A stretch of 64,000 bases of DNA from Streptomyces lienomycini. Its GTDB lineage: Bacteria > Actinomycetota > Actinomycetes > Streptomycetales > Streptomycetaceae. A program made the translations under genes and the position numbers. Below, piece by piece: positions 52,520 to 55,973 of this stretch (positions are counted from its first letter, which is position 1; every line of letters begins with the position of its first letter). The stretch is taken from positions 5,764,001-5,828,000 of the forward strand of contig NZ_CP116257.1 of the NCBI RefSeq assembly GCF_027947595.1, written 5' to 3'. The notes beneath the pieces are model-generated. The model did no database searches. It was not told where the DNA came from and worked only from the letters and a program-made list of their open reading frames with translations.

Positions 52520-52558
52520 CCGGAGCGGCGAACGGCTGGGCGCCGTTCGCCGCTCCGG
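52520..52558 (-). terminator. terminator of terC
   Basis: CCGGAGCGGCGAACGGC with perfect complement (17 bp) and a 5-base loop, 12 bp after the terC stop. Confidence 0.88.
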
Positions 52559-52569
52559 GACCCGGTGGT

Positions 52570-53571
52570 TCAGGCCTCGACGCTGTCCTTCGAGGTGTCG
52601 CCGCTCGCGGCGGCGGCCGCCTCCGCCTCGGCCTGCTTCTTCGAGGCGCGGAGGCTGGTGATCGTGGTGACGATCAGGACGGAGCAGATCACGCCGAGCG
52701 AGACCGGAATGCTGATCTCGGGGACGTGGACGCCGGACTCGTGCAGCGCGTGCAGCACCAGCTTGACGCCGATGAAGCCCAGGATCACGGACAGGCCGTA
52801 GGAGAGGTGGACCAGCTTCCTCAGCAGGCCGCCGATGAGGAAGTACAGCTGCCTGAGGCCCATCAGGGCGAACGCGTTGGCCGTGAACACGATGTACGGG
52901 TCCTGCGTCAGGCCGAAGATCGCCGGGATGGAGTCGAGCGCGAAGAGCACGTCGGTGGTGCCGATCGCGAGCATCACGACCAGCATCGGGGTCATGATCC
53001 GCTTGCCGTTCTCCTCGATCCACAGCTTGGTGCCGTGGTACCGGTCGGCGACGCCGAAGCGGCGCTCGGCGGCCTTGAGGAGCTTGTTCTCCTCGAAGTC
53101 CTCGTCCTCCTCGTCGGCCCGCGCCTCCTGGATGAGCTTCCAGGCGGTGTAGATGAGGAAGGCGCCGAAGATGTAGAAGACCCAGGCGAAGCTGGCGAGG
53201 ATCGCGGCACCCGCGGCGATGAAGATGGCCCTGAGGACCAGGGCTATGAGGACACCGATGAGCAGAACCCGCTGCTGGTACTGCGAGGGCACCGCGAACT
53301 TCGCCATGATCAGGACGAAGACGAAGAGGTTGTCCACGCTCAGCGACTTCTCGGTGATGAAGCCCGCGAAGAACTCGCCCCCGGGTTCACCGCCGCCGAA
53401 GAGCAGCAGGCCGAGCCCGAAGAGGCCCGCCAGGGCGATCCACACACCGGTCCAGATGCCGGCTTCCTTGATCGATACGTCGTGCGGTTTGCGGCCGATG
53501 AAGAAATCGACCGAGATGAGGGCGGCGAGGCCCACGATGGTCAGGACCCACAGGGTCACGGAAACTTCCAC
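52570..53571 (-). CDS. TerC-family integral membrane protein
   Basis: 333 residues, about nine transmembrane helices. Family motifs are FAGFITEKSLSVDNLFVFVLIM, with the acidic residues implicated in metal transport, and the second repeat IGTTDVLFALDSIPAIFGLTQDPYIVFTANAFALMGLR. TerC/Alx/MeeF-type proteins export manganese or metallate exported enzymes. A cytoplasmic acidic loop lies at about 145-165 and an Ala-rich C-terminus ends the protein. GTG start with GGAGG four bases upstream. The leader has the features of a manganese riboswitch. Confidence 0.93.
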   Translation of the reverse strand: MEVSVTLWVLTIVGLAALISVDFFIGRKPHDVSIKEAGIWTGVWIALAGLFGLGLLLFGGGEPGGEFFAGFITEKSLSVDNLFVFVLIMAKFAVPSQYQQRVLLIGVLIALVLRAIFIAAGAAILASFAWVFYIFGAFLIYTAWKLIQEARADEEDEDFEENKLLKAAERRFGVADRYHGTKLWIEENGKRIMTPMLVVMLAIGTTDVLFALDSIPAIFGLTQDPYIVFTANAFALMGLRQLYFLIGGLLRKLVHLSYGLSVILGFIGVKLVLHALHESGVHVPEISIPVSLGVICSVLIVTTITSLRASKKQAEAEAAAAASGDTSKDSVEA

Positions 53572-53619
53572 TACGCCTCCGGCAGTACGTCACACGGCAG
53601 ATGTCAGCGTCGTCGCTGC

Positions 53620-53748
53620 CGGAGGTCTCTTCCACCCGGGCGTCCGGGACACGTGACGCGTCCGGAAGCCACGGGCCGACGCCCCGGGATCTGGCCTGAT
53701 CCGTATTGACGGGTACGCCGCAGCAGATAGGGAGTACTCCCCTCCGTA
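53620..53748 (-). ncRNA. yybP-ykoY-type manganese riboswitch candidate (terC leader)
   Basis: Minus strand: P1 CGGAGG (53741-53746) followed by GGAGTAC, then about 100 nt, then GGAAGAGA and the P1 partner CCTCCG (53620-53625). This mirrors the yybP-ykoY consensus, in which P1 is followed by GGAGUA and preceded on the 3' side by GCAAGA. A promoter fits just upstream. The 3' P1 strand CCTCCGGCAG is the perfect complement of CTGCCGGAGG (53576-53585), the terC ribosome binding site. Confidence 0.8.
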
Positions 53749-53754
53749 CGGACG

Positions 53755-53784
53755 ACAGTACCCCAATCCCCAAGGGAAGGTAAA
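53755..53784 (-). promoter_or_regulatory. terC promoter
   Basis: TTTACC (53779-53784), 18 bp, TACTGT (53755-53760) on the minus strand; transcription would start near 53748, at the base of the riboswitch P1. Confidence 0.6.
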
Positions 53785-53825: not shown

Positions 53826-55870
53826 CTACCTGCCCCATGGTCGGCGGGCCGACGCGACCTGTGCGAGGACCTGCTGAAGCACCTGGCTGCCGGGTGGCAC
53901 GAGCGAGGGCTCGTACGTCCAGGCATGCCCGACCCACGGGTCGGCGAGGTGGTCGTCGGCCACCGGCGTCAGCCGCAGCAGCGAGCGCCACAGCGGGTCG
54001 AGCAGCGGTCCGTACCCGGCGGACTCCTCGCGGTCGGCGACGATCATCAGATGGACGCCGACGGCCGGGCCCTCGTCGGCCAGGTAGCGCAGCTGGTTGA
54101 CCGCGCGGTCGTCGAAGCCGTGCGGGAACTCGTTGACGATCAGTAGCTGCTGGGAGGTGTCGAGGCCGGGCGGGAGTGCGTCGGGAGCACCTGCGCGCAA
54201 CGCCATCTGCACCAGGTCGACACGCTGGGTGAGACGGGCGAGTACGTCCGCGGCCCCCGCCGCACCGTGGGCGGGCGGCGCGGCGAGCACCCCGCTCCGC
54301 ACCAGCGGCGCCAGTGCCTGCGTCCCGGATCCGGCGGGGTCGATGACGTGCACGGTGAACTCGCCCGCCGGGTAGACGGCGAGCAGCCGGGCCGCGTGGG
54401 CGACGGCCGCCTCCAGGCCCAGGCGGCGCATCTCGTGGGAGTCGGCCGACGAACCGTCGGTCGAGGTGGAGCGCCCGCTGTCGATCCACAGCCCGCGCTC
54501 CAGCGGCAGCCTCATCAGCATCGGAACGCGTATGCCGTCGGCCTCGGGCAGATGGAGATCGCCCAGCCGCAGGGCCATGGGGATCTCCATGGGGACGCGG
54601 TAGGCGTGCCAGACGGGGTTGTCCCAGCGCGCGAAGGCGGCCGGCAGGGCGGGTTCGACGACCCCGGCCTCCGCGACGAGCTGGGCGACGTCCCGGTCCA
54701 GGACCTCCCTGGCCTGCGACACCAACTGGCCGTGCCGGGCGCGCGCCGCTTCCCGGGCGGCGTCGCCCTGCCCGCCGATCCGGTTGCGCGGGTCGGACAG
54801 GGCCTGGTCGAGTTCCTTCTCCATGCGGGAGTCGGCGAAGTCGACGGCGCTGCGGTAGGCGGCCGCGGTGCGGGCAAGGTCCTCGAACATGCCCCACACC
54901 TGGTTGTAGAGCCGCTCCTCCATGGACCAGCCGGTGGCGTCACCGGCCACGGGCCGGGCGGGCTGTCCCGGCTCGGCCGGGGGCGCGGTCGGCGGGGGCG
55001 GGGGCGGTGCCGCGTTCTGTCGCCTGGGGTGGCTGTAGTCGATCGGGCCGCCCGCGGCGGGCGTGGACGGCCGGCCGGCGTGGGCGGGGTCCGGGGCCCG
55101 TCCGGGCAGGGCTGTTGCGTCCCGTGCTGTCCAGGCGCCCCGGGCGGCTGCGGGGCGGGCGCGGGGGCACCCTGGGCGTCGTACGGAGAGGCCGGAGCTA
55201 CGGGGCCGGAGCCGGCCTGGGGCGCGGTGCCGTGGTCCGGGCCGTGTGCCGGGGTGGCCGCCGGGCGGGCGCGGTCGCCGTCCGCGGCGCGTGCCGGAGG
55301 GGCCGGCACCGAACGGGCCAGGCCGCTCGCCACCGCCTCCTGGATGCGGCCCGCGAGCTGATGGGCCTGGGGCAGGTTCTGGTCGGTCAGCAGCTCGGGG
55401 AGGCCCCCCGCGTAGCCCTGGCCGACGGCGCGCACCTTCCAGGTGTCCTGTCGCCGGTAGAGCTCCAGCGCGACGACGGCGGACTCGGCGTCCAGGCCGG
55501 TGATGGTGTAGCTGGCGACCTCGTCGCCGTCGAGGCCGGTGACCGAGACGAAGGGGGCTGCGACGGCCCCGAACCGGACCGGGCCCGCCCCGCCGACGGG
55601 CAGGGCGAGCAGCACGCTGACGCGGTGTACGGCGTCCGGCACGGCGTCGAGGTCCACGGCGAGGCGGTGGTCTGCGGCGGCCTGGCGGGAGACTTCCAGG
55701 CCCGGCAGGGTGGGGCTGCCCGGGTGGGCCACCTGCTCGACGCCGTGGACGGTGCCGTTCTCGTCGCCGAGCGTGGCCCCGGCCACGACCGGTGTGCCGG
55801 CCGAGACCCGGATCTCGAGACGGGCCCGGGGAAGCGGGTGGTTCTGTCCCCGCGTCAGCTCGGCCGTCAT
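53826..55870 (-). pseudogene. TerD-domain / large cytosolic protein, frameshifted
   Basis: Two frames that belong together. From ATG 55870 the first 255 residues contain a TerD domain (RLEIRVSAGTPVVAGATLG ... SYTITGLDAESAVVALELYRRQ) and a proline-rich linker. The second part, in the -1 frame from about 55100, continues IDYSHPRRQNAAPPPPPP, GWSMEERLYNQVWGMFEDLARTAAAYRSAVDFADSRME and ends at 53826 with a conserved domain (LIVNEFPHGFDDRAVNQLRYLADEGPAVGVHLMIVADR) that resembles FtsK/SpoIIIE-like ATPase C-lobes. In relatives I recall these as one protein of about 680 residues. One base appears to be missing in the GGGCCCC run at 55093-55099; adding it restores one frame. The reading may be a real lesion or a sequence error. 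Confidence 0.8.
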
Positions 55871-55973
55871 CGCCTTCCCCCTGTGTCACTCGTGTCGCTC
55901 GCGCGTCTCCCGCAAGACGTCGTGCGGGAATCGCCGGTCCCGCGTACGGGACCGGCCGGTTGGTGTCGGACTG

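Follow-up and report, generated by a model that had tools for sequence, protein, structure and literature searches.

How is terC switched on in this part of the Streptomyces lienomycini chromosome, and does a strand of its own leader make the choice? The window, meaning the whole 64,000-nucleotide stretch of DNA under analysis, carries terC on the minus strand behind a leader that an earlier note had read as a yybP-ykoY manganese riboswitch with a built-in clamp on the ribosome binding site.

Anatomy of the terC leader

The features of the locus are given below in window coordinates; A1 denotes an alignment of Streptomyces leaders and A3 a class-level alignment, each of 76 rows.

52570..53571, minus strand: terC, GTG start, encoding a 333 aa membrane protein of the TerC family (PF03741 at 179.6 bits, cut-off 27.8)
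53576..53585, minus strand: terC ribosome site CUGCCGGAGG, partner strand of the predicted clamp
53605..53618, minus strand: P5 hairpin CAGCG-ACGA-CGCUG, paired in 95.7% of the cells of 76 rows, with double-sided changes at 2 pairs
53616..53625, minus strand: P1.1 3' strand CCUCCG with flank GCAG, the anti-ribosome-site strand of the predicted clamp
53626..53629, minus strand: L1 3' side GAGA (from the alignment)
53630..53633, minus strand: P1.2 3' strand GGAA (covariation)
53635..53675, minus strand: P4, with base CCCG/CGGG and a variable apical part (compensatory changes)
53677..53686, minus strand: P3.1 3' strand (covariation)
53687..53702, minus strand: P3.2 hairpin GGAUC-AGGCCA-GAUCC (compensatory changes)
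53703..53709, minus strand: L3, UCAAUAC, in which the A at 53707, the third base, is the counterpart of A41, the Mn contact of L. lactis (UCA41AUUC)
53710..53720, minus strand: P3.1 5' strand (covariation)
53721..53730, minus strand: linker without hairpin at the place of helix P2, 5-17 nt in A1 and 4-10 nt in A3
53731..53734, minus strand: P1.2 5' strand CUCC, with an upstream GGAG/GGGA as alternative partner (candidate anti-aptamer hairpin)
53735..53740, minus strand: L1 5' side GGAGUA, found in 76/76 A3 rows
53741..53746, minus strand: P1.1 5' strand CGGAGG, its letters identical to the core of the ribosome site (pairing and covariation)
53755..53784, minus strand: promoter-like pair TTTACC (53784-53779), 18 nt, TACTGT (53760-53755), from which the RNA would start a few bases before P1

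On the minus strand, the P1 5' strand CGGAGG (53746-53741) runs into GGAGTAC, and GGAAGAGA (53633-53626) is followed by CCTCCG (53625-53620), so that the two sides of L1 read GGAGUA and AGAGACC in the window. The L1 3' side reads AGAGA in 38, GGAGA in 22, CGAGA in 12 and GAAGA in 4 of the 76 A3 rows. L3 is UCAAUAC in 62, UCAGUAC in 13 and UCAUCAC in 1 of the 76 A1 rows; at class level, all but 2 of the 64 terC-type rows conform to UCANYAC, and ACACACU (8) or ACAUACU (4) stands in the 12 rows that precede GDT1- or exchanger-type genes. The adenosine at the third L3 position is present in 76/76 rows of both alignments. A C.A mismatch adjoins L1 in 73/76 Streptomyces leaders. Helix P2 is absent, which reduces the four-way junction to a three-way one, and the linker that takes its place reaches 13-17 nt in only 3/76 A1 rows.

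The GGAGG of the ribosome site ends 4 bases upstream of the terC GTG. Among the 75 distinct aligned relatives, 67 share this spacing, 4 have 5 bases and 4 have 7; GTG is the start codon in 74. Further upstream, the GGTANNNT box is kept in the leaders of 59/76 relatives, with 9 bases between box and GGAGG. A sigma-70 consensus scan of the leader gave no match; the promoter call comes from conservation, and its -35 element (TTTACC) was assigned by eye. Because the box is conserved, the unmapped start of the terC RNA probably lies just before P1. An intrinsic terminator was sought in the leader and none was found.

Two observations concern the flanks. Directly after terC lies a perfect 17-bp hairpin (window 52520-52558; fold -40.3 kcal/mol, z -5.55), which precedes an ORF of the Na/Ca-exchanger family (PF01699, 52518-50947, minus strand) and is perhaps a transcription end, though it lacks a T run. 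The gene upstream of terC (window 53826-55889, minus strand) looks split across two frames: a TerD domain lies in ORF 54515-55870, and a plausible C-terminal part, recognised by eye and with no Pfam match, lies in the frame of ORF 53826-55889, a possible frameshift or sequencing error.

A leader that the Rfam model does not recover

The kinship with the yybP-ykoY family cannot be read from its Rfam model: RF00080 gave no match to the leader at E<=10 in the scanned stretches, nor anywhere in the genome of the window. The lack of a covariance-model match, which the earlier note had named as a refutation, is thus the outcome as far as RF00080 is concerned. The link is made instead by purpose-built covariance models and by loci that these have in common with RF00080 below its threshold. 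Model R1 draws only on terC leaders of Streptomyces (26 rows, 25 of them distinct, window included) and R2 is a wider model; E-values of both are rough, their calibration having been short, and searches over more than 40 genomes, including that of RF00080 in 394 genomes of the class, used stricter filters. Over its gathering cut-off (45 bits), RF00080 found nothing in 150 Streptomyces genomes, 12 of which held weaker matches, and nothing in the 394 class genomes, which were drawn in the same way as those for R1 and of which 10 had a match with E<=0.01. With permissive filters it still gave no match at E<=0.1 in 20 of the 60 class-level loci fetched, and none at E<=0.5 in five Streptomyces terC loci. 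Other Rfam families gave the leader sub-threshold chance matches, such as DUF3800-XI at 13.4 bits against a cut-off of 37.8, and were rejected.

R1, in contrast, matched 208 of 394 class genomes (about 40 of them Streptomyces) in 69 of 137 genera, and 178 of 199 Streptomyces genomes, the other 21 being without a match. It also recovered, at 46-56 bits, all 12 Streptomyces loci that RF00080 had seen below threshold, and of the 10 class loci with a weak RF00080 match R2 recovered 8; the Rfam and the purpose-built models thus meet on the same RNAs. Across the phylum R2 matched 97/396 genomes, and 60 of the matches lie outside the class. P2 belongs to the RF00080 consensus, and its absence explains why that model misses the leader. 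Since R1 matches 208/394 genomes where RF00080 matches 0/394, annotation probably understates manganese control among antibiotic producers and related bacteria.

Conservation and covariation of the fold

A contig search with the TerC protein yielded 80 related terC loci, and 77 of these genes are preceded by the same leader (75 distinct ones, the duplicate L068, and L052, whose motif has a 1-base deletion and which still scores 65.6 bits with R2). This frequency takes the observation of the clamp beyond chance. The leader is missing in L048, L073 and L075, where R2 gave no match at E<=1 either. Alignment A1 comprises the window leader and 75 others, with GGGGAGTA serving as a selection criterion; the three loci without leader were left out, as were L052, L068, which duplicates L060, and L093, which repeats the window region. 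In a further alignment, A2, L018 is present twice.

In A1, 95.5% of the cells of the fold are paired and double-sided changes occur in 34 cells against 9.4 after shuffling, a value that 0/500 shuffles reached. P1.1 itself is nearly invariant within Streptomyces; at class level, both P1.1 and P1.2 covary. In A3, 97.1% of the cells are paired against 76.4% when shuffled, 21/27 pairs are changed on both sides, and the covariation score is 0.566 against 0.188 for shuffled and at most 0.132 for slid partners, all counts that are somewhat inflated toward structure by the fitting of A3 to the model and that include the second matches L156:10-117, L185:100-208 and L143:1504-1650. The predicted helices P1.1, P1.2, P3 and P4 are supported by covariation.

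As for these second matches, L185:100-208 (minus strand, 47.2 bits) and L143:1504-1650 (plus strand, 35.4 bits) are aptamer-like and lie divergently beside a terC leader, which suggests divergent gene pairs under one leader type. L156:10-117 (minus strand) lies downstream on the same strand.

One strand, two partners

The earlier claim that an exact 10-base complement to the terC ribosome site is built into the leader is confirmed: on the minus strand, CCTCCGGCAG (53625-53616) complements CTGCCGGAGG (53585-53576). Strand 53625-53620 is common to P1.1 and to this predicted clamp, and the two pairings are therefore mutually exclusive. The ten clamp pairs are 97.0% paired across the 76 Streptomyces leaders of A1. 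Whether leaders covary across Streptomyces, a check that the earlier note had put forward, has a divided answer: the fold does, but the clamp, which shows hardly any variation, does not do so above shuffled expectation (128/500 shuffles reach the observed value). The class level is therefore the informative test.

Pairing was first measured as the longest Watson-Crick run that the P1 3' strand can form with the 24 bases preceding the start codon. This run was at least 7 long in 42 of 58 terC loci (window in; L147 out, for want of a placeable start); 1000 permutations that swapped leaders gave 16.0 such loci on average and 25 at most. A few mis-picked start codons, e.g. in L158, lower the observed value. 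A second measure needs no start picking and may reach into coding bases: an exact 7-base complement of the P1 3' strand lies 3-95 bases after the aptamer in 38 of 58 loci (window out, L147 in), against a mean of 14.6 and a maximum of 22 for swapped leaders. A further test was confined to the loci whose strand is not CCTCCG. An exact 6-base complement lies 3-95 nt after the locus's own aptamer in 11/21 of them; the same test in leaders of other types gave a mean of 0.51 and a maximum of 5. Matched pairs include CCTTCGG/CCGAAGG (L165, L179), CCTCCAG/CTGGAGG (L152), CCTCGAA/TTCGAGG (L143, L158, L172, L176, L185, L191) and CCTCCGA/TCGGAGG (L183, L192, L193). As the loci are related, they represent fewer independent events than their number.

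These data bear on the reading that the complementarity is a by-product, the P1 5' strand resembling a ribosome site so that its partner comes to resemble an anti-ribosome site. The P1.1 5' strand does usually end in GG before GGAGUA, and GGAGG is found in many ribosome sites. The match nevertheless runs past P1.1 (GCAG/CTGC), and the ribosome-site region tracks the altered strands CCTTCGG, CCTCGAA, CCTCGGG, CCTCCAG and CCTCCGA (beyond P1.1). With 11/21 loci against a mean of 0.51 in leaders of other types, a by-product is highly improbable. We conclude that the clamp is supported, at the level of sequence comparison, by covariation among three strands, namely P1 5', P1 3' and the ribosome-site region; the earlier proposal of a choice between P1 and a ribosome-site duplex thus has support at class level. 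The P1.1 3' strand is without an exact 6-base complement downstream in 20/58 loci, and the clamp is therefore common rather than universal. Leaders without the complement may use another platform.

One Streptomyces terC leader, L033, has lost nearly everything between the clamp strands, leaving CCTCCGGT-loop-ACCGGAGG. L084 has the same U-A for C-G at clamp pair 8 as L033, a compensatory change.

Genes downstream of the aptamer

A TerC gene lies just after the aptamer in 58 of the 60 class-level loci fetched, a set hand-picked for diversity among the better-scoring matches listed rather than at random and including one locus, L142, that is itself from Streptomyces; among the 58, L147 encodes a distant TerC with 27% identity. 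Because the search used the RNA alone, the position of terC is an independent check. The yybP-ykoY hallmarks noted earlier, right in letters and coordinates, are thereby supported by gene context as well as by covariation of the fold. In the two other loci, from two genomes of one genus (L141:346-1326 and L189:381-1295), the aptamer precedes a small uncharacterised protein with no Pfam match above cut-off and a common ADRAAIARYDYL...RVEQIH motif, a candidate manganese-linked gene.

Of the 12 Streptomyces loci that RF00080 detected below threshold, 11 lie before a GDT1/UPF0016 gene and one, L003, before a Na/Ca-exchanger gene. In the genome of the window, R2 found two more places, C1:4177067-4177172 and C1:4178645-4178741 (minus strand; L209, C1:4174000-4180500). 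The second copy is intact, scores 59.3 bits and lies before a GDT1/UPF0016 gene (PF01169). The third match, at 38.3 bits, lies before the neighbouring Na/Ca-exchanger gene (PF01699) and is probably a degenerate copy, with no GGGGAGUA and hence no 5' side to L1; an intact exchanger-gene copy exists in another Streptomyces (L003). Together, the terC, GDT1 and exchanger leaders suggest a small manganese regulon. Downstream of the GDT1 and exchanger copies in the same genome, the platforms look unlike the terC clamp. The genome also encodes a second TerC paralogue, 79% identical to that of the window (L094, C1:3221436-3222389), at whose locus R2 gave no match at E<=1, i.e. no such leader.

YrbG is an exchanger. 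In Vibrio, yybP-ykoY is predicted to control mneA (UPF0016/TMEM165), terC and yrbG, and mneA and terC are Mn-induced (PMC13274385, in excerpt). The kinds of gene found here downstream of the aptamer are those predicted under Mn riboswitches in that source, and the core letters of L1 and L3 that contact Mn2+ are retained; both argue against the same RNA switch answering another signal, be it a different divalent metal or a combination of pH and Mn2+, the latter as reported for E. coli mntP/alx. Reporters of the mntP and alx riboswitches do answer alkaline pH and Mn2+ together (PMC9603457, in excerpt), and loss of P2 could change docking and selectivity, yet on balance we regard a different signal as quite unlikely.

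Energetics and a proposed kinetic switch

RNAalifold and single-sequence folding both pick the clamp together with a 5' hairpin over P1.1. In minimum-energy folds the clamp occurs in 74/76 leaders and P1.1 in 0/76. When constrained, the OFF fold is the stabler one in 76/76 Streptomyces leaders, by 13.7 kcal/mol on average, in fold energies that leave out Mn2+, the non-canonical pairs of L1 and the docking of L1 to L3. Given this computed gap, a simple equilibrium choice would not explain the switch, which is probably kinetic and co-transcriptional. What had been called a simple translational switch therefore keeps its two alternative partners, P1 and the ribosome site, and loses its simplicity. 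The computed ON folds also count against a clean picture: at least 3 of the 5 ribosome-site bases are paired elsewhere in 37/76 leaders. The pairing on which the 5' hairpin would depend is widespread, local GGGA being able to pair with UCCC/UCCU just 3' of it in 76/76 A1 rows, and GGGA/UCCC or GGGG/CCCC pairing being possible in 61/76 A3 rows. As a correction to the earlier reading, P5 and this hairpin probably take part too.

In our view the terC leader very probably belongs with the yybP-ykoY Mn2+ riboswitches, as a variant that lacks P2, has a three-way junction and switches terC translation on. That it binds Mn2+ and regulates terC in response is what we infer; the ON direction would follow from which fold frees the ribosome site, and it fits an exporter. 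The aptamer would be complete before the ribosome site exists, which would set up a co-transcriptional race. Mn2+ would dock L1 onto L3 and hold P1.1 during RNA synthesis, and with P1.1 held the ribosome site would stay free and TerC be made. Without Mn2+, P1.1 would open as the ribosome site emerges, the 10-bp clamp would form and translation would be off. P5 (CAGCG/CGCUG) would lock CAG away from the clamp and may help to hold the ON fold, and the 5' GGGA/UCCC hairpin may help to hold the OFF fold.

The same Mn2+ aptamer could in principle have transcription as its main output, with Rho cutting the untranslated, clamped message and the clamp acting mainly in this way. E. coli mntP is said to combine a translational Mn riboswitch with Rho (PMC11647493, in excerpt), and as the terC leader has no intrinsic terminator, any termination would need Rho. 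A clamp that covers the ribosome site and covaries with it is, in contrast, the signature of translational control, to which Rho would add a second layer; we find Rho as the main output unlikely and retain translational control of terC as the preferred reading.

A broader reading, which we hold to be likely though with clearly less assurance than that of the terC leader itself, extends to the Actinomycetota. The phylum would possess a separate subclass of Mn2+ riboswitches that Rfam overlooks, with a three-way junction and docking without P2. It would normally control terC and, in certain Streptomyces, a GDT1-type and a Na/Ca-exchanger-type gene as well. Switching would be kinetic and involve three strands, with P1 and the ribosome site as rivals for a single CCUCC strand, and the 5' hairpin would disarm the aptamer.

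Comparison with known manganese riboswitches

Two elements of this picture are already in print: Mn-riboswitch annotations before terC (PMC3890552, in excerpt) and a translational Mn riboswitch, as the E. coli mntP one is called (PMC11647493, in excerpt). As far as titles and abstract openings show, what is new is the form with a three-way junction, how broadly it occurs in Actinomycetota and the covariation of three strands; among the matches listed, none of those on the yybP-ykoY or manganese riboswitch, or on TerC and manganese in Streptomyces, describes the leader in title or abstract opening. A 'terC RNA motif' reportedly figures in a 2017 motif survey. With L1 and L3 but no P2, this form puts to the test which elements of the four-way junction are required for sensing Mn2+, and a strand common to P1 and the anti-ribosome-site helix offers high-GC hosts a translational switch that is simple and open to mutation.

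Alx is a member of the TerC family. In E. coli, the genes alx and mntP, likewise of exporter type, follow yybP-ykoY family leaders that respond to Mn (PMC9603457, in excerpt); in the terC leader, the 3' strand of its own P1 would cover the ribosome site. In Vibrio, the riboswitch gave no sign of terminating transcription (PMC13274385, in excerpt). The cg2157 (terC) leader of Corynebacterium glutamicum is again of the Mn-riboswitch type before terC in an actinobacterium; it differs from the present one in reaching the Rfam score, with RF00080 at 49 bits (PMC3890552, in excerpt).

In the solved structures, Mn2+ is contacted via an invariant L3 adenosine, A41 in L. lactis (UCA41AUUC) and A48 in X. 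oryzae (ACA48UACU), L1 is used for docking and P2 forms part of a four-way junction (PMC6754395, in excerpt). The terC leader has the same L1, GGGGAGUA...AGACC, in the internal loop above P1.1 as the L. lactis (4Y1I) and X. oryzae (6N2V) yybP-ykoY RNAs, the same seven-base L3 bulge with the Mn-contacting A, and the same order P1.1, P1.2, P3.1, P3.2, P4. As in the family, P1.1 is the proposed switch helix and the site lies before exporter genes of the terC/mneA type. The two L3 types of Streptomyces resemble the two crystallised loop types: UCAAUAC of the terC leader is one base apart from UCAAUUC of L. lactis with the Mn-contacting A retained, and ACAUACU of the GDT1/exchanger type is identical to the X. 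oryzae loop. From the RF00080 family at large, the terC leader differs in the absence of P2, replaced by a 4-17 nt linker, in its three-way junction, in its C.A mismatch and in scoring below the cut-off.
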